This document shows, one piece after another, positions 482 to 60,385 of a stretch of DNA of 64,000 bases. The stretch's first letter is position 1. Every line of letters begins with the position of its first letter. Below the pieces are notes generated by a model. It did not search any database. It had not been told where the DNA came from and saw nothing but the letters and a program-made list of their open reading frames with translations. The position numbers were made by a program, and so were the translations under genes. The DNA comes from Acidobacteriota bacterium (GTDB lineage Bacteria > Acidobacteriota > Blastocatellia > Pyrinomonadales > Pyrinomonadaceae), in the NCBI GenBank assembly GCA_003697135.1, contig RFGC01000019.1:1-64000 (forward strand), read 5' to 3'.

Positions 482-676
482 AAGATAGTTGTTCTGTAGA
501 GCGGAGCAAAGAAAACAAAAACGATGAATGACTGTGATCTTTAGTGCTTTTTATCCAACAGAGCAATTTTGTGGCAAGAGATTAAAGTAGGTGGGAACAA
601 GAGTAACTGTAATTGGTTTGAAAGTTAAATCTAGACTCTAAGGATCAATCTTTGAGCTTGATGATAATCTCTAAAA

Positions 677-707
677 GAGGCTCTAGGGCGTTTGGGCCTA
701 GAGCCTC
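677..707 (-). terminator. Rho-independent terminator of clpB
   Basis: A perfect 11-bp stem (GAGGCTCTAGG at 677-687, complement at 697-707) with a 9-nt loop sits 6 nt beyond the clpB stop. On the minus strand it is followed by TTTTAGAGATT, a U-rich tail. Confidence 0.85.
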
Positions 708-712
708 AGTTG

Positions 713-3310
713 TTAGGATGCGGAAACTGCGGCTGTCTCAGGAATGAATTTCAGTTGTTCGTTCTCGGCGATCACTCTAACAACCTGACTGCTTTTGATC
801 TCTCCGCTCAGTAGTTTCATAGCAAGCGGATTTTGAATCAGAGTTTGTATAGCTCGCTTAAGCGGTCTAGCTCCGAAAGTCGGATCGTAGCCATGTTTGG
901 CTATGAGTTCCTTCGCAGAAGCATCCAGAATCAGCTTGATGTCTTTCTCCGCAAGCATCTTTTGCAACCTTTCTATTTGCAGGTCAATTATTCGATCAAT
1001 GTGTTCTTTGGTGAGTTGATGGAATATGACGATGTCGTCAATTCTGTTCAAAAACTCAGGTTTGAAGTATTCACGAAGAATTTGCATCACGGCTTCGCGC
1101 ACTCGCACTTCATCGCCACTCAAATTCAGTATCTCACGCGAACCTAAATTCGACGTCATTATTAAAACCGTGTTCTTGAAATCAACTAAACGCCCTTTTG
1201 AATCCGTCAAGCGTCCATCATCGAGAATTTGCAAGAGAATGTTGAAAACGTCTGGATGTGCTTTTTCGATTTCGTCAAACAAAATCACCGAATACGGACG
1301 ACGTCGAACAGCTTCTGTCAATTGACCACCTTCTTCATAACCAACATATCCCGGCGGCGCTCCTATCATGCGTGCAACTGCATGTTTTTCCATGTATTCG
1401 GACATATCGAGCCTAATCATTGCTCTTTCGTCATCGAATAAAAACTCCGCTAATGCTTTAGCAGTTTCCGTTTTACCCACTCCGGTCGGACCTAAGAATA
1501 TGAAAGAACCGATAGGACGATTCGGGTCTTGAAGTCCTGCGCGTGCGCGCCGAACTGCGTTTGCGACAGCCGATAAAGCTTCATCCTGCCCCACGACTCT
1601 TTTCCTGAGATTGTCTTCCATCTTCAAAAGTTTCTGCATTTCGCTTTCAAGCATCTTTGAAACCGGAATACCAGTCCATTTGGCAACAACTTCGGCTACG
1701 TCTTCTTCCGTTACTTCTTCCTTCAGGAAAACACTTTCTTTCTGAAGTTCAGCCAATTTTGCCTGTTCTTCTGCAAGCTGTTTTTCAAGTTCTGGGATTT
1801 TTCCGTAACGAAGTTCCGCCGCTTTTTGCAAATCTCCTACATTCTGCGATCTTTCAAGTTCGAGTTTCGCTTGCTCGATTTGTTCTTTTATGGAGCGAAT
1901 TTTCTCGATTTTTTCTTTTTCAGCTTGCCATTTTGCCTTCATCTGACTTGATTTTTCCTTTAGATCAGCAATTTTCTTTTCGATCTCGGCAAGCCTTTCT
2001 TTTGCTTTTTCGTCCGTTTCTCTCGAAAGAGCCTGCCTTTCAATCTGAAGTTGAAGGATTTCCCTTTCGAGTTCATCAATTTCTTGAGGCATGCTGTCAA
2101 TCTCGATTCTAAGACGCGAGGCGGCTTCGTCAATTAAGTCAATTGCCTTATCTGGCAGAAACCTATCGGTGATATAACGATGCGAAAGAGTAGCTGCGGC
2201 GACTATAGCAGAATCCGTTATCCGAACTCCGTGATGAACCTCATACCTTTCTTTCAAACCACGCAATATCGAAATCGTTTCCTCAACCGAAGGCTCGCCA
2301 ACATAAACCTTTTGGAATCGGCGTTCCAAAGCTTTGTCCTTCTCGATGTATTTTTGATACTCATTCAAAGTAGTTGCGCCTATGCATCTTAGAATTCCTC
2401 TTGCCAAAGCAGGTTTGAGCATGTTGGAAGCATCAATAGCGCCTTCTGCTGCGCCTGCACCAACTAAGGTGTGAATCTCATCAATGAACATGATTATTTG
2501 ACCTTCGGCTCTTTCGATTTCTTTCAAAACAGCTTTCAGTCTATCTTCAAATTCACCGCGATATTTTGCACCGGCGAGCATCGCTCCAAGGTCTAGTGCG
2601 ACAAGGCGTTTGTTCTTGAGAGTTTCCGGGACATCGCCCGAGACAATTCTCTGCGCTAATCCCTCGACAATTGCGGTTTTTCCTACGCCCGGTTCACCTA
2701 TCAAAACAGGATTGTTTTTGGTTCTACGCGATAGAACTTGAATCGTTCGGCGTATTTCGTCATCTCTTCCGATGACGGGATCGAGCTTTCCTTTGCGAGC
2801 AAGCTCTGTTAAATCAGTTGCGTATTTTTCAAGAGCCTGAAAGTTCTCTTCAGCATTCGGATCGGTGATTCGGCTTCCGCCACGCAGCTGCTCTACAACT
2901 TTCAAAATATTCTCTCTGCTCGCACCATTTGCACGAAGAATTCGCCCTGCATCACCACCTTTTTCATCAGCAATCGCAAGTAAGAGATGTTCAGTCGAAA
3001 TGTATTCATCTTGCATTCTCTCGGCTTCTTTTTGCGCCGCTTGAAAGATAGTGTTGGTGCGCGATCCAAAATACTGCTGTCCGCCCGTAACTTGCGGAAA
3101 TCTTTTGATTACATCTTCAACTTCGGCAAGGATTCCATTTGGATTAGCCCCAATCTTGCCTAATATCGAACGCGCTACTCCTTCTTTTTGCTTCAGCATT
3201 CCAGCTAAGATATGTTCAGGCTCAACTTGCTGATGCTGATGCGTCATAGCTATTTGAATAGCCTCTTGAATGGCTTCCTGCCCGCGAACTGTGAATTTAT
3301 CGAATCTCAT
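713..3310 (-). CDS. clpB: ATP-dependent disaggregase ClpB
   Basis: An 865-residue Hsp100 chaperone that works with DnaK to pull apart heat-aggregated proteins in the cytoplasm. Visible in order are the double Clp N-domain (1-145), the first AAA+ domain with Walker A GEPGVGKT (205-212) and Walker B IDEIH (276-280), the long coiled-coil middle domain (about 405-525) that separates ClpB from ClpA/ClpC, WTGIPV (545-550), and the second AAA+ domain with GPTGVGKT (607-614). Length is normal for the family. The start is fixed by a strong Shine-Dalgarno AAGGAGG at 3318-3324. It lies downstream of hsp20 on the same strand but a terminator separates them, so it probably has its own promoter. Confidence 0.98.
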
Positions 3311-8200: not shown

Positions 8201-9158
8201 AAACGTGAAACTCCGTTGGCGTGTCGGGACCGACCAGGGAACAGCCCGCGAAGGGCAATACATTGACGACGTTTTGGTAACCGATGGATACACTTGCGCT
8301 TGCAGGCTTTCGAGAAAAAGCATTTTTGATTTCGACGGCGACGGGAAAACGGATTTATCGGTCTTTCGCCCGTCTGACTCCGAAAATGAACCTGATTTCT
8401 ACATTAAACAAAGCGGAAGCGGTAATCTCACGGGGGCATTTTGGGGCAGCATCGGCGATATTGCTGTCAACGCTGATTACGACGGCGACGGACGATTTGA
8501 CTTCGCAGTCTTTCGTCCTTCAACAGGCACATGGTTCATTCTGCAAAGCGCAACAGGGACAATCCTGGTGAGAAATTTTGGATTATCAGCCGACAGGCTA
8601 GTTCCTGCAGACTTTGACGGCGATGGACGCGCCGATTTAGCAGTCTTTCGCCCTTCGGAAGGTAACTGGTATATTTCGCTGAGCGGAAGAAATGGCGAGA
8701 CAACAACGAAAAAGTTTGGAATCCAAGAAGATTTGCCTATCTCCGGCGATTTCGATGGTGATGGACGCGCTGATATAGCTGTTTTCCGACCGTCAACCGG
8801 TTTTTGGTTTATCTTGCGAAGCTCCGATGAAACTTTGCGTTCCATAAAATTCGGCATAAACGGTGATCGCCCGATTACAGGTGATTTCGATGGCGACGGA
8901 CGAGCTGATATAGCCGTTTTTCGTCCATCAAACGGAACTTGGTATTTTTTAGCCAGCCAGAGAGGCTTTTATTCAGTTAAATTCGGCACAGAAAACGATA
9001 GAATCTTGCAAGCCGACTTTGATGGCGATGGACGCGCCGATATAGCAGTTTTCAGAAACGGCAACTGGTTGTATTTGCAAAGCTCCGATGGCACTTTCAA
9101 AAACTTCCAATTTGGCTTACCTAACGATATTCCTGTGCCTTCTATCTTCGTGCCGTAA
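5256..9158 (+). CDS. Large secreted multidomain protein with C-terminal FG-GAP/VCBS repeats
   Basis: About 1300 residues. I chose the ATG at 5256, 7 nt after the permease stop, over an upstream ATG inside the permease. A basic N-terminus of about 44 residues precedes a single hydrophobic helix (KKLFFALLVVGVF), an unusual late signal or anchor. Then come a propeller-like domain common in secreted proteins of this group (PPDTNGDVGLNHYVQAVN, GDPIVLYDPLADRWIISQF), a carboxypeptidase-regulatory-like beta domain (about 629-703, ITGVVTNAENGQPIQSAVI), a CARDB-like domain (about 708-820), a MAM/jelly-roll-like region (about 826-1020) and six calcium-binding-type repeats (1024 to the end). The likely location is outside the cell or at the surface. 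No catalytic motif is seen, so function is unknown; adhesion or surface binding is inference. Confidence 0.85.
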   Translation: MKKKEKAENVVTKAIKSSRNFFFIWASEKIVSTTRRLKQAKKLFFALLVVGVFSAQKTFLDFAISDFLANTAIENKALAEKAQSNTKIFKEVKPQVFKAVKFAVSDPVSSFGPAQPEEGKSSRKMGRAEEQARKVPNRLPFRKQIQGAIHDVERNFAEISSLPMPSPSLSFEGISSNDNAAAYGFRIIPPDTNGDVGLNHYVQAVNSLVRVFDKQGNPLTPPFKLSSLFSSLGTPCSRRDDGDPIVLYDPLADRWIISQFCILFPPFRQMIAVSKSPDPTGEFYVYEFVMPNVKLNDYPKLAVWTDAIYMSTDQFLGSDYAGSGVFAFNKIKLYSGATDANYIYFDLASPTTIRLGNLLPADLDGLNLPPEGMPGIFVGYTATEYGDPLDAIRLFEFRADFNNPLNSTFAERAESPIPVAPFDPTSPAGRADIQQPPPGEALDSQSDRLMYRVAYRNFGSYDSLVFNQTVRISAVGETYRAGVRVYELRRNSPNSAFQVNFQATIGEIENSRWMASAAQDHQGNIAVGYSFASEQKKPSILYTGRLSTDPPGTFRIETPLVIGTGVQTAFGFRWGDYSQMSIDPSDDCSFWLTNEYYTLESQEESPFGWLTRIGKFRFPECSDAPRAVITGVVTNAENGQPIQSAVIRTLDYFRSTNEFGQYGNLSLLPGTYNLTATARGFRPKSLAVSVSNGQTLIQNFALEPTAVLEIQNVEILSENCVANEAIEPGETVTMNIKLKNTGMKATQNLTASLQSSGGVINQSPPQNYGVLLPNGEGIARPFTFTVSPDLSCGDEITLTLDLRDRTEDLGTVSISLNTGIKRIALQENFDRSENLPVGWTTSASGGQQNWVISSNRQVSPRNSAFSSCSTQIGINQLETPSFPINSTQAELSFKNWYELESTFLRNKLYDGAVLEIKIGDGDWQDIESAGGFFLQGGYDGVIDSCCQNPLAGRRAWSGRSGVNQTAEFVTARVKLPISSAGQNVKLRWRVGTDQGTAREGQYIDDVLVTDGYTCACRLSRKSIFDFDGDGKTDLSVFRPSDSENEPDFYIKQSGSGNLTGAFWGSIGDIAVNADYDGDGRFDFAVFRPSTGTWFILQSATGTILVRNFGLSADRLVPADFDGDGRADLAVFRPSEGNWYISLSGRNGETTTKKFGIQEDLPISGDFDGDGRADIAVFRPSTGFWFILRSSDETLRSIKFGINGDRPITGDFDGDGRADIAVFRPSNGTWYFLASQRGFYSVKFGTENDRILQADFDGDGRADIAVFRNGNWLYLQSSDGTFKNFQFGLPNDIPVPSIFVP
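8325..9080 (+). repeat. Six in-frame FG-GAP/VCBS coding repeats
   Basis: The motif D(F/Y)DGDGR.D.AVFRPS recurs at about 8328, 8475, 8610, 8748, 8883 and 9018, a period of 135-147 nt (45-49 residues). The DxDGDGxxD loops resemble calcium-binding loops of beta-propeller blades. Codons differ between copies, so the repeats are old rather than recent duplications. Confidence 0.9.
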
Positions 9159-55699: not shown

Positions 55700-56920
55700 T
55701 TAAATTGTTCGTTGCATTACGTCTGCTTGATGATATTCTCGAAAAGTGTTTATGTCCTTGTCACCCCTGCCAGAAAGATTGATGATGATTATCTGATCCT
55801 TTGGCATCGAAGGAGCGATTTTCATTGCATAGGCAATGGCATGAGCGCTTTCTAGCGCAGGAATAATGCCTTCCGTCCGAGATAAAAACTCAAACGCCTC
55901 GATGGCTTCTGCGTCAGAAACGGCAACGTATTCGACACGCCCGATGTCATGCAAAAAGGCATGTTCAGGTCCTATCGAAGCATAATCGAGACCAGCCGAG
56001 ACTGAATGAGTCAATGCAATCTGCCCACGCTCATCTTGGAGAACATAGCTTTTAGTCCCTTGCAAAACACCGATTTTACCGCCTTCTAAAAACCTGGCCG
56101 CGTGCTTGCCTAATTCTTTGCCTTTGCCGCCTGCTTCAACGCCTATCATTTTCACAGATTCGTCTTGCAAAAATGCGTGGAAAAGCCCTATTGCATTTGA
56201 ACCTCCACCAACGCAAGCAATCAGCAAATCAGGTAAACGCCCTTCTTTCTCCAGAATTTGACTTCTGGCTTCCTTGCCGATAACGCTTTGAAAGTCTCTC
56301 ACCATCAACGGATAAGGATGCGGACCGAGAACGCTTCCCAAAAGGTAGTGAGTCGTTTCAACGTTTGTGACCCAATCACGCAAGGCTTCGTTGATTGCGT
56401 CCTTCAAGGTGCGTGAACCTGCATCAACGCCGCGCACTTCCGCTCCGAGTAGTTTCATGCGAAAGACGTTTAGTTCTTGGCGTCGCATGTCTTCTGTTCC
56501 CATGTAAACTACGCATTCAAATCCAAACAGAGCGCAAACCGTTGCGGTAGCAACGCCGTGCTGTCCTGCGCCGGTTTCCGCAATTATGCGTCGCTTGCCC
56601 ATGCGCTTTGCAAGAAGTATCTGCCCAATGCAGTTGTTTATCTTATGCGCGCCCGTGTGGTTTAGGTCTTCGCGTTTTAGATAAATTTTCGCTCCGCCGA
56701 GTGCTTCTGAAAATCTTTTCGCATAGAACAGCGGTGTTGGACGCCCGCTGAAATCTCTGAGCAATTTTTGAAACTCTGCCTGAAAATCCGCATCATCGCG
56801 AATAGCAAGATAGCTCGCCGTAAGCTCTTCGAGCGGTGAAACCAGAGTTTCGGGAACAAACCTTCCACCAAAAGCTCCCCAATAGCCTCTTTCATCTGGT
56901 TGAAACTGTATCGCTTCCAT
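55700..56920 (-). CDS. trpB: Tryptophan synthase beta chain
   Basis: A 406-residue PLP enzyme condensing indole with serine. The PLP lysine is in [15 protein letters not shown]. Also [13 protein letters not shown] at the start, [19 protein letters not shown] and the glycine-rich [15 protein letters not shown]. Typical TrpB1 length. Its start lies 29 nt inside trpF. trpA is not adjacent in the window, an unusual separation. Confidence 0.97.
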
Positions 56921-57533
56921 ACCTAACTGCCTTTACAAAACTTTTGATTTTCGCTTGGTCCTTTACTCCCTTTGCCTTTTCTACTCCACTACAAACGTCA
57001 ACGGCAAAAGGCTTTACTTTCCGAATTGCCTCTGCTACGTTTTCGCTGGAAAGTCCACCGGCAAGATAAATTTTAGGGAAAATTTTGCTCACGCTTTTTG
57101 CTATTTCCCAGTCGAAGACTTCGCCCGTTCCGCCATAGTGCGATGGATTATAGGAATCCAGCAAAACCGCATCAATCGGAAAGCTCTTTATTGTTTGAAT
57201 GTCGAAATCGCCGGAAACCCTAAAAGCCTTTATAATCTCCAAATCCGTCTTTTGCCTGAGTTCAAAGACAAATTCAGGTGTTTCTTCGCCATGAAGCTGA
57301 ATCGCCTCGATTTTCACCAAATTAACAGTTTGCAGAATCTCCTCGATCGTTGCATTGACAAACACTCCGACTTTGGCAATGCTCACTTGCTTAGCTATTT
57401 GAGAAGCTTCAAACGGCTTTATATAGCGAGCGCTTTTCGGATAAAAGTTAAATCCCAACATATCTGCGCCTTCTTCGACGCAAAACAAAGCATCTTCAAG
57501 ATTTGTAATTCCGCAGATTTTGATCAAAACCAT
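56892..57533 (-). CDS. trpF: Phosphoribosylanthranilate isomerase
   Basis: A 213-residue (beta/alpha)8 enzyme of tryptophan synthesis. [16 protein letters not shown] contains the catalytic Cys and QLHGEE and [20 protein letters not shown] contain the Asp and phosphate-binding glycines. ATG at 57533 is the usual family start, 1 nt after the preceding gene's stop. The 3' end overlaps trpB by 29 nt. Confidence 0.95.
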
Positions 57534-57534
57534 T

Positions 57535-59034
57535 TTACCTGGCTGAAAATTCCCTTCGCTCACCGTCTAGATTTTTCACACCGAGCAATGCCCAGATTTT
57601 TTGAGCGCCAGCCGCAACTTCTGAAACGACTCTGCCTTGTTCATCAATCAATACAGCCGAAGGCGTTCCTTCCATTCCCAATTTTTGAAGAAGTTCGCGC
57701 CTTTCGTCAATCAATACTGGCACCCGAAAATCAGCTTCAACCTCTTTCGCTCCGTCGTTTGAAACCGAGATTATGAAAAGCTCTGGTGCATCAGCATCTT
57801 TACCTTTTTTCCATGCCTTCAACTCCTCAAGCATTTCACTACAAAAACCACAAGTCGGACTCCAGTAAGTCAAGAGAGTCTTTTTTCCCAAGAAATCTTT
57901 TGAAGATATTTTTGCTTCACTTGCTGTCGGAAGCTCAAACTCAGGAATTTTCTGGCCGACTTTGATTTCAGCTTTAGAGTTCTCATCGGCTATGAAATCA
58001 ACTTCTCCTTGTGTGAGACTAATTTTCTCAAGCAAAGATTTGATTGCCGTATCGCCCGGAATTGGCTTGCTTGCGATTTTGCCGTCTTTGTTGACAAAAA
58101 CAGCAGTCGGAGTCCATTGCACACCAAAGAGTCTTGAAATTTCTCTGTCCTTTTGCAAAAGAATCTTTCCCGATGGCAAGCTGAATTTTTCCTTATTCTC
58201 CGCCGCTCTACCGTTCGAGATGAGAACAAAATCAACTTTGTCCTCTAGTTTTTCATGCCATTTCAAAAGCTCTGGCATAAGCGCGCTGCAAGGACCGCAT
58301 GAAGGACTTATGAAAACAAAGAGTAGCGACTTTCCTTTCGAGAAAATCTTTTCCATGCTTATTCTTTCGCCATCAATTGAAACAGCCGCAAAGCTGGGAA
58401 CAGGTGCTCCTACAGGCAAGCCTTCTTCAGGATGCTTTACTTCCTCAACCTTTCTTTCAACTCCGACTTCACCGAAACTTAAAACCTCAAGCTGACGCAG
58501 GATTTTCGTTTGATTCTCAATAATTTTTTTCATGTAAAAACAAATAAGCCCAAGCAAAGCTATAACCGCAAGCCCGAAAAACAAAGCCAATGAAAATTCA
58601 AACGAAAACGTCAAGAAATCAGGCTTTTGAGCATTTTCTCCTTGAAAAATCAGAAAAACAGCAGGAATCATAAACAAGAAATTGCGAACAAGGCTTTTGG
58701 GCGAAATAGGTTCGGATTTAATGCTACCAAAGCAATGGCAATCAGCCGAATTACCCTTTGCCAATTGATAAGCTAGAAAGGCAGTAAAAACGAGCAAAAG
58801 CACCAAAGCAGATATAGCGGCAAAATGTGCGGTCGAGCTGAAAAGCAAACAAAAGGCAATCGTCAATTCCACAGTCGGAAGCAGAACCGCCAAAATAGGC
58901 ACAATTCTTCTGGGAACACCAAAACCCTCTAGGCTCTTTTTTTCGCCTTTCAAATCACTTAGTTTTCCCAAACCAGCAATCGAAAAAACCGCAAAAAGAG
59001 AAACTCTAGCGAGAAAAATCAGCGCTTCCAACAT
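57535..59034 (-). CDS. MauE-like membrane domain fused to two thioredoxin-like domains
   Basis: A 499-residue protein. Four hydrophobic helices (about 4-130) form a MauE/DoxX-type domain with DCHCFG (C99, C101), the MauE motif. A further helix (147-168) leads to two TlpA/AhpC-type domains. One has SPSCGPCS (C246, C249) and cis-Pro in VQWTPTAVF. The other has SPTCGFCS (C395, C398) and MEGTPSAVL. The Trx domains should face the periplasm. It probably relays electrons or disulfides across the membrane, as in methylamine dehydrogenase maturation, but no such enzyme is nearby. It is between der and trpF with gaps of 4 and 1 nt. Confidence 0.88.
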   Translation of the reverse strand: MLEALIFLARVSLFAVFSIAGLGKLSDLKGEKKSLEGFGVPRRIVPILAVLLPTVELTIAFCLLFSSTAHFAAISALVLLLVFTAFLAYQLAKGNSADCHCFGSIKSEPISPKSLVRNFLFMIPAVFLIFQGENAQKPDFLTFSFEFSLALFFGLAVIALLGLICFYMKKIIENQTKILRQLEVLSFGEVGVERKVEEVKHPEEGLPVGAPVPSFAAVSIDGERISMEKIFSKGKSLLFVFISPSCGPCSALMPELLKWHEKLEDKVDFVLISNGRAAENKEKFSLPSGKILLQKDREISRLFGVQWTPTAVFVNKDGKIASKPIPGDTAIKSLLEKISLTQGEVDFIADENSKAEIKVGQKIPEFELPTASEAKISSKDFLGKKTLLTYWSPTCGFCSEMLEELKAWKKGKDADAPELFIISVSNDGAKEVEADFRVPVLIDERRELLQKLGMEGTPSAVLIDEQGRVVSEVAAGAQKIWALLGVKNLDGERREFSAR

Positions 59035-59038
59035 TGTT

Positions 59039-60385
59039 TCAGTCCCTTATTTTCTTTTTTTCCTTAATTCTAATCGGAGTTGCAAAAAATTGAAATTCGT
59101 CGCGCAAGCGATTCTCGATGTAGCGCAAGTAAGAAAAATGCAAGCTTTCTTTTCCCGAAGTGAACACAACAAAAAGCGGTGGTCTCGTTGACGCTTGAGT
59201 GATATATCGGATTTTCAATCCTGAACCAGCGTTTTTTGAAATGACTGCTCCGGGATAAGCTAACCCGCTTGGTTGAGCGATATGCTTTTCAAAAAACCTA
59301 TTGAGTTTCCCAGTTGGAATACGAAAGTTTCTGGCTTCCCATGCCTTCACCGCTAAAGGAAGAATCTTGCGAACTCTGAGTCCTGTCAAGGCTGAAACGG
59401 TTATCATCGGTGCCCAATCGAGAAACTTCATTTTTTGGCGCAAGTAACTCTCAAATTCCGACACCTTTCTTTCGTTGTTTTTTTCTTTCACGGCATCCCA
59501 TTTGTTGACAACGATAATTATCGAACAACCTGAATCAAGTGCATAACCAGCGATATGAGCATCAAGATTCGTTACACCTTCCGTGGCATCAATCACCAGA
59601 AGTGCTACGTCTGCTCTTTCTAGAGCTTTTCTTGCCATGATGACAGAAAGTTTCTCTGCCATCTCTTTTGTTTTGCCTTTTCGGCGAATGCCCGCAGTGT
59701 CAATCAGCAGAAACTTTTGTCCATCGAAATAAAACTCTGTATCAACAGCATCTCTAGTTGTTCCGGGAATAGGAGACACTATGACTCTTTCCTCTCCGAT
59801 TATTCTGTTTAGAAGCGACGATTTTCCTACGTTCGGACGCCCGATTATTGCTAGTTTTATTGCTTGATCCTTTTGGCTATCTTCCTCAGTGAAAGTTAAA
59901 TGCTCGAAAATTTCATCTAAAAGCTCGCCCACACCGCTTCCGTGTTCAGCAGAAATGGGAAATACAGGAAAGCCAAACTTGTGAAATTCGCCTGATTCTG
60001 ACTCAACTTTTTCGGACTCAACCTTGTTGGCAACTACAATCACCTTTTTACCCACACTTAACAGAAAAGGAAAAATCTCCTCGTCTAAAGGTGTCAATCC
60101 TTCACGAGCATCAACTACCCAAAGCACAATTTGAGACTCAAGAATTGCCTGCCTAGCTTGCTTGAAGATATTCGATGGAATCAGGGCTTCTTCATCAGGT
60201 ATAATCCCACCTGTATCAACAATGCGAAAAATTTTCCCTCGCCATTCAACCTCGCCGTAGATTCTATCTCTAGTGATTCCGGGTTCATCACCGACAATTG
60301 CCCTTCGGCTTTGTGTGAGGCGGTTAAAAAGTGTTGATTTACCAACGTTAGGACGCCCTACTATTGCAACCAAAGGTAAACTCAT
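59039..60385 (-). CDS. der: Ribosome-assembly GTPase Der (EngA)
   Basis: A 448-residue GTPase needed for 50S subunit maturation. Two tandem G domains are visible. The first begins VAIVGRPNVGKSTLFNRL and has VANKVES as G4. The second has IGRPNVGKSSLLNRI, DTAGIRRKGK and VNKWDAV. A KH-like domain ends the protein. Length is normal. A hairpin lies right before the start codon. Confidence 0.97.
   Translation of the reverse strand: MSLPLVAIVGRPNVGKSTLFNRLTQSRRAIVGDEPGITRDRIYGEVEWRGKIFRIVDTGGIIPDEEALIPSNIFKQARQAILESQIVLWVVDAREGLTPLDEEIFPFLLSVGKKVIVVANKVESEKVESESGEFHKFGFPVFPISAEHGSGVGELLDEIFEHLTFTEEDSQKDQAIKLAIIGRPNVGKSSLLNRIIGEERVIVSPIPGTTRDAVDTEFYFDGQKFLLIDTAGIRRKGKTKEMAEKLSVIMARKALERADVALLVIDATEGVTNLDAHIAGYALDSGCSIIIVVNKWDAVKEKNNERKVSEFESYLRQKMKFLDWAPMITVSALTGLRVRKILPLAVKAWEARNFRIPTGKLNRFFEKHIAQPSGLAYPGAVISKNAGSGLKIRYITQASTRPPLFVVFTSGKESLHFSYLRYIENRLRDEFQFFATPIRIKEKKKIRD

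Follow-up and report, generated by a model that had tools for sequence, protein, structure and literature searches.

A 64,000-nucleotide stretch of the genome of a member of Pyrinomonadaceae (hereinafter, the window) encodes a single polypeptide that combines a MauE/DoxX-type membrane domain with two thioredoxin domains. Its recurrence in other genomes supports the view that this is a real fusion, conserved across phyla, that constitutes a membrane thiol system. The function that we propose for it, with modest confidence, is that of a MauE/MauD-type catalyst of oxidative folding for exported disulfide-rich proteins. The MauE helices would keep the thioredoxin domains anchored at the external side of the membrane, where these domains would swap disulfides with exported Cys-rich substrates, and the CxC motif of MauE would hand the electrons into the membrane, with quinone as the simplest acceptor. 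In phyla other than that of the window, genes adjacent to the fusion would encode the substrates, namely, proteins very rich in Cys that carry SRR (Tat-like) signals. In the phylum of the window, the substrates would be peptides with a PqqD domain and a short Cys tail of even count, mostly encoded elsewhere in the genome. The function of the window copy is read by extension from these relatives: its substrate is likely to be encoded on another contig, and the link between the two is one of co-occurrence only.

Domain architecture and predicted structure

The fusion gene (positions 57535 to 59034 of the window; this gene and all its features are on the minus strand) is a single 499-amino-acid frame with an ATG start. 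Residues 4 to 130 (58645 to 59025), with four membrane helices, match the MauE family (Pfam ID PF07291) with 93 bits and an E value of 2.4e-26, against a gathering cutoff of 27 bits. The DCHCFG motif occupies residues 98 to 103 (its CxCFG part, residues 99 to 103), with the CHC triplet (residues 99 to 101; 58732 to 58740) located in the interval between helices 3 and 4. A fifth membrane helix (approximately residues 145 to 167; 58534 to 58602), which can be likened to the anchor that holds MauD in the membrane, is followed by the MauD-like thioredoxin domain 1 (residues 205 to 338; 58021 to 58422), with a CGPC motif at residues 246 to 249 (58288 to 58299), and the ResA-like thioredoxin domain 2 (residues 353 to 474; 57613 to 57978), with a CGFC motif at residues 395 to 398 (57841 to 57852). 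Both assignments come from NCBIfam matches below the curated cutoffs: 59.3 bits versus 188.6 for the MauD equivalog TIGR02661 and 83.4 bits versus 170 for ResA (PRK03147). Pfam also matched two Redoxin/AhpC-TSA stretches; neither VKOR (PF07884) nor DsbD/CcdA (PF02683) was among the Pfam families of the fusion down to an E value of 0.1, and PADLOC returned no defense system match for it. Of the eight Cys residues in the protein (62, 99, 101, 165, 246, 249, 395, and 398), the six that belong to the motifs do not vary in any of the 18 full-length homologs, and Cys62 and Cys165 are not conserved.

The AlphaFold model of the whole protein (mean pLDDT, 81; pTM, 0.53) contains five long N-terminal helices (residues 2 to 26, 45 to 64, 66 to 93, 112 to 131, and 145 to 186) and two thioredoxin folds; the MauE part, modeled alone on 54 sequences, reached a pLDDT of 92. 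The frame itself, the Pfam and NCBIfam matches, and this model bear out the sequence-only reading of the gene as one frame with a DCHCFG motif, membrane helices, and CGPC and CGFC motifs. The closest solved structures to the thioredoxin domains are of the ResA, CcmG, and pneumococcal Etrx2 types. For the MauE fold, Foldseek found no match at an E value of 0.001, the MauE profile matched no PDB sequence at an E value of 1, and in structure comparison VKOR scored a Z of 5.7 amid many unrelated bundles. All six motif cysteines are presumed to face the cell exterior; a count of loop charges gave no decision on the topology, which weighs against the oxidative-folding reading.

Conservation and phyletic distribution

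In a phylum-wide sample of 297 genomes, full-length copies are found in 18, including that of the window: 15 in its own family, 2 in another family of the same class, and 1 outside the class. The 18-of-18 cysteine count rests on this search, which is independent of the CxC-containing peptide pattern. A scan of named genomes with that pattern produced 112 relatives, of which 80 loci were retained; the CxC motif is conserved among these 80 by construction, because the single search pattern contained it. They come from Pyrinomonadaceae, other Acidobacteriota, Chloroflexota, and Actinobacteriota, with four single entries labeled Nitrospira, Deltaproteobacteria, Gemmatimonadetes, and Alphaproteobacteria. 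Of the 98 sequences checked (with some genes counted twice), 96 retain two CxxC motifs; the remaining two are L108, which has a single thioredoxin, and L112, whose contig ends early. Thus, the domain order that the sequence-only reading had suggested searching for does recur, in the 18 full-length copies in the phylum and in relatives in other phyla, and the two outcomes that it had named as fatal did not materialize: homologs with just one active CxxC are the exception, and an assembly join of two genes can be ruled out, since the same one-frame fusion recurs in other genomes with the six cysteines kept. In its own genome, the fusion is single-copy, with weak thioredoxin matches and one sub-threshold MauE-family match elsewhere.

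The number of thioredoxin domains per fusion ranges from one (at L108) to four, with three at nine loci. The longest array is in L150 (positions 589 to 3117, minus strand), where MauE and four AhpC/TSA-like stretches share one 843-amino-acid frame. In three triple copies, the third thioredoxin is 46 to 77% identical to the second and 29 to 34% identical to the first, so the arrays seem to have grown via copying of domain 2; the number of thioredoxins may be tuned to the substrate. Some fusion frames are interrupted, by a TGA in L075 (near position 8445) and a TAG in L022 (near 1684), and the frame in L102 is apparently shifted near positions 8371 to 8507; these may be sequence errors, decaying copies, or genes that are truly split. 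Selenocysteine was considered for the flagged in-frame TGA of L009 and L010 and rejected, as this codon is an ordinary stop.

Gene neighborhoods

By translation (supported by Pfam for der and trpF), the neighbors of the window copy are der, trpF, trpB, hemB, and hemL. The der (EngA) gene (59039 to 60385, minus strand), 4 bp upstream, is a family-conserved neighbor: it is found upstream of the fusion at 39 of 41 Pyrinomonadaceae-like loci, and L064, one of the two without it, has just 235 bases of upstream sequence. These loci were grouped by their titles and similarity rank, with der itself as a further criterion for L081, L102, L111, and L113, which makes the count for this gene partly circular. 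Downstream, most family loci have tgt, yajC, and secD/F. The downstream neighbor in the window, trpF (56892 to 57563, minus strand), is not conserved: it adjoins the fusion at none of the 80 other loci, and trpB, hemB, and hemL are likewise absent there, save for TrpB near L073 and HemL near L088. The trpF-trpB-hemB-hemL order is seen in the window only, and the sister genome (L113) has genes for an ABC ATPase and PhoU downstream.

Because the trp/heme order occurs only in the window, the operon setting carries no functional signal, and we rejected it as a clue to function. Thus, of the self-contained transmembrane thiol relay in a tryptophan/heme operon proposed in the sequence-only reading, the membrane thiol system stands, being conserved across phyla, and the meaning attached to the operon falls, while the pair of thioredoxins proposed to act in series is not a fixed number, relatives having one to four; the conserved neighbors that were sought proved to be der and, in most family loci, tgt, yajC, and secD/F, not the trp/heme genes. 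The exported Cys-rich company of the fusion is a better clue to its function than the trp/heme setting.

Cys-rich proteins encoded next to the fusion

At 18 of the 39 loci outside the family of the window, a very Cys-rich frame lies within 1.5 kb of the fusion. Cys-dense frames were defined as those in which a 60-residue stretch holds at least 10 Cys (motif-free, with frames inside the fusion gene excluded). At these 39 loci, the 101 kb that lie no farther than 1.5 kb from the fusion contained 22 such frames, versus 4 in the 286 kb farther away. The count takes open frames, not curated genes, and some second frames, such as the one in L077, may not be real. Six of the 22 near frames (two each in L075, L085, and L100) lack an RR ahead of the dense part. 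An earlier Tat/Cys filter, which missed clear cases such as L088 and L090, selected 14 of the 39 loci; under random placement within each locus, a weak test, the mean was 7.3 and the maximum 13. At the 41 family loci, there is a single Cys-dense frame in the 119 kb within 1.5 kb of the fusion, and no Cys-rich gene was found near the window copy; both observations speak against the oxidative-folding reading.

The adjoining gene at many of the 39 loci encodes a protein with 10 to 20% Cys and an SRR ahead of a hydrophobic stretch. Thus, Cys accounts for 76 of 382 residues in the neighbor at L071, 76 of 610 at L088, and 32 of 206 at L110. In Ktedonobacter (L082), three small genes for SRR Cys-rich proteins are followed by the fusion and then by tatA and tatC (identified by Pfam). 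We presume that these proteins are exported via Tat; the Tat family models had no match at the cutoff on the scanned proteins, a point against this reading. No family was recognized among ten Cys-rich neighbors scanned, save for the phospholipase A2-like one at L096 and a sub-threshold match at L082; for the neighbors at L085 and L100, the matches were a CXCXC repeat and, below the threshold, STIG1. The domain in the SRR Cys-rich neighbor at L096 (positions 2034 to 3062, plus strand) resembles group XII secretory phospholipase A2.

In an extra Chloroflexota sample, 8 of 400 genomes were fusion-positive at an E value of 1e-60. One of the Chloroflexota genomes (G449) has three copies of the fusion, each with small SRR Cys-rich proteins encoded beside it. 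The copies from this sample, together with extra copies from other genomes, gave 13 loci, which were reduced to eight (L145, L146/L147, L149, L150, L152, L155, L156, and L157) after L148, L151, and L153 had been set aside as repeats, L146 and L147 merged as one gene, and the short L154 omitted. At five of these eight (L145, L149, L155, L156, and L157), a gene for a Cys-rich SRR protein, judged by eye, is located within 1.5 kb.

PqqD-domain peptides with Cys-rich tails

In a second type of Cys-rich product, a PqqD-like domain is followed by an SRR and a hydrophobic stretch, and the tail is rich in Cys. Such peptides are encoded beside the fusion at L020, L097, L145, and L156 and near it at L044. 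Their profile (A3) was built from eight sequences, including those of G259 and L044 (taken as G327, since the positions agree), and was applied with E value cutoffs of 1e-6 in a set of 41 genomes of the family and 1e-15 in the 297-genome phylum set; the matches in G305, G038, G315, and G322 are partial. In the phylum set, the peptides are found in 16 of the 18 genomes with a full fusion versus 10 of the 279 others, and, when counted by genus, in 5 of 6 with the fusion versus 10 of 160 without it; all these co-occurrence counts, except for the one by genus, treat related genomes as independent. In one of the two peptide-negative genomes (G258), the fusion lies beside a gene for a 76-Cys protein (L019).

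Within the family set, 16 of the 41 genomes encode a fusion (14 full and 2 with one thioredoxin), and peptides are present in 15 of these 16 versus 11 of the 25 without one (P = 0.0012; P = 0.0087 for the 28 better genomes). The association persists without the peptides of G259 and G327/L044. The peptides are not associated with VKOR (P = 0.38), which is encoded in 35 of the 41 genomes. Against our favored reading, 11 genomes in this set have the peptide without the fusion, and one (G300) has the fusion without the peptide.

Among 44 distinct complete tails, 43 contain at least four Cys residues, and 42 of these 43 have an even number of them (4 to 16); the binomial P value of 5e-12, calculated with the one tail below four Cys left out and related tails counted as independent, is indicative only, because related tails are not independent. 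The single odd tail, with 7 Cys, is that of the peptide from the genome of the window, which goes against the oxidative-folding reading. Judging by their sequences, the tails look disulfide-bonded. Eight of them have a C-C-CC-C-C framework, as knottins do.

The genome of the window encodes one such peptide (L166), which matches A3 with an E value of 5.8e-52. It is a 155-amino-acid PqqD-domain protein with an SRR, a hydrophobic stretch, and the 7-Cys tail (contig 19 of that genome; L166 positions 1504 to 1971, minus strand), adjoined by an NTP_transf_5 protein and a protein similar to HprK-related kinases. The region has the appearance of a peptide cassette, RiPP-like or knottin-like, that is not yet described. 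Contig 12 of the same genome encodes a 111-amino-acid, exported-looking Cys-rich protein with CC pairs (L117 positions 1231 to 1566, plus strand), which has no Pfam match and is not linked to the fusion. In some Pyrinomonadaceae, a single genome encodes about 40 PqqD-SRR-Cys peptides, a large expansion of the family: the profile has 44 matches in G317 and 38 in G327 (L158 and L160).

Redox direction and alternative explanations

The net reaction, in our interpretation, would be oxidation or isomerization rather than reduction. An alternative that we consider unlikely is that MauE sends electrons outward to the MauD/ResA-like pair, which would keep thiols reduced or, in an isomerase branch, proofread wrong disulfides, as in CcdA-ResA or DsbD-DsbC. 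Such a relay would fit the CGPC first motif and the ResA-like domain 2, both typical of reductases as well, which speaks against the oxidative reading; it would also fit the nearest solved structures (ResA, CcmG, and pneumococcal Etrx2 types), and Cys-rich substrates would need isomerization, too. However, the Glu that ResA has three residues after CxxC in alignments with the fusion domains, and that matters in ResA and CcmG, gives way to a hydrophobic residue (Leu, Met, Val, or Ile) in every one of the 96 first domains and in all but one of the 96 second domains. This hydrophobic replacement argues against a ResA/CcmG-type reductase and does not by itself prove oxidation. Further, the second domain carries CPHC (19 of 96) or CGHC (8 of 96) in 27 of the 96 sequences, motifs that we take to be of the DsbA and PDI type, respectively; some genes were counted twice in this survey, and the CPKC second motif of L100 is probably misassigned. 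The genome of the window also has CcdA-like, ResA-like, and further thioredoxin-like genes that form a separate thiol module on contig 4 (L002/L127), in addition to a DsbD-like protein and a separate VKOR gene on contig 15. With these proteins in place, general reduction and oxidation both seem covered, which counts against a reductive relay; by the same token, an oxidative fusion could be redundant with VKOR, CcdA, and the DsbD-like protein, a point against our own proposal.

It appears rather improbable that in the family the fusion is a thiol carrier whose substrate has nothing to do with Cys-rich proteins (e.g., Sec-exported enzymes), the linkage elsewhere being a later recruitment. The family neighborhood, with der upstream, tgt-yajC-secDF downstream, and no Cys-rich genes, would agree with such a role, as would G300 and G114, in which the fusion is present and no peptide was detected. 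Nevertheless, the fusion tracks the Cys-tail peptides, and its presence in only 16 of the 41 family genomes argues that it is not a housekeeping component. Least of all do we expect a leftover of methylamine dehydrogenase maturation or an accessory to it, a notion to which only a very small probability can be assigned. It draws on the MauE and MauD similarity of the domains, but the score of 59 bits against MauD is far from the cutoff of 188.6, there is no mau gene among the translated neighbors in the window, and the methylamine dehydrogenase light chain (PF02975) has no match in the genome, with 14 control genomes equally silent, a result that falls short of proving its absence. Oxidative folding of exported disulfide-rich proteins remains the reading that we prefer.

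Relation to known systems

Fusions of VKOR with thioredoxin occur in cyanobacteria and likewise combine a membrane redox bundle with an exported thioredoxin in one chain. The protein described here differs in belonging to the MauE/DoxX family, having a single CxC and two or more thioredoxins, and giving no VKOR match. ResA and CcmG, which work with CcdA, share the thioredoxin fold with both fusion domains, whereas the fusion lacks the Glu after CxxC and has MauE instead of CcdA as its membrane part. The MauE and MauD pair of Paracoccus is similar in that the MauE domain scores above the Pfam cutoff, 134 residues of the first thioredoxin domain match the MauD model, and a disulfide-related role on an exported protein is presumed (PMC7794033); in contrast, the fusion unites its domains in a single chain, includes a second thioredoxin, scores far under the cutoff for MauD, and has no mau operon. 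That article, the only one in the literature searched that connects MauE with disulfides, mentions a speculation (citing van der Palen 1997) that MauE introduces the disulfides of the beta subunit of methylamine dehydrogenase, and it describes MauE homologs in candidate RiPP clusters of Streptomyces (decRiPPter), in which each precursor has at least 8 Cys. These clusters, as described there, share with our loci MauE-type proteins with Cys-rich precursors nearby; the loci analyzed here differ from them in the phyla, the large SRR proteins, and the PqqD-domain peptides, and perhaps also in the tandem-thioredoxin fusion. In the literature searched, which excluded most subscription journals, no title or abstract opening dealt with the fusion or with PqqD-SRR-Cys peptides.

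The role of MauE and MauD has so far been a guess, bound to one complex enzyme. A widespread fused version next to defined Cys-rich proteins offers clean enzyme-substrate pairs for testing. More tentatively, MauE with one to four fused thioredoxins may constitute an oxidative-folding system in its own right, alongside DsbA/DsbB and VKOR, that is responsible for the maturation of a large class of disulfide-rich proteins exported by bacteria, from SRR proteins with up to approximately 80 Cys to PqqD-led peptides, some with the knottin framework. If so, bacteria would have an additional membrane route to disulfides and a large, barely described pool of disulfide-rich peptides.

One structural observation concerns a eukaryotic protein. 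At the edge of the chance level for helical bundles (Z, 13.2; root mean square deviation, 2.2; 116 aligned residues), the top structural match of the MauE domain (positions 58489 to 59034 of the window) is the receptor-assembly factor NACHO/TMEM35A.
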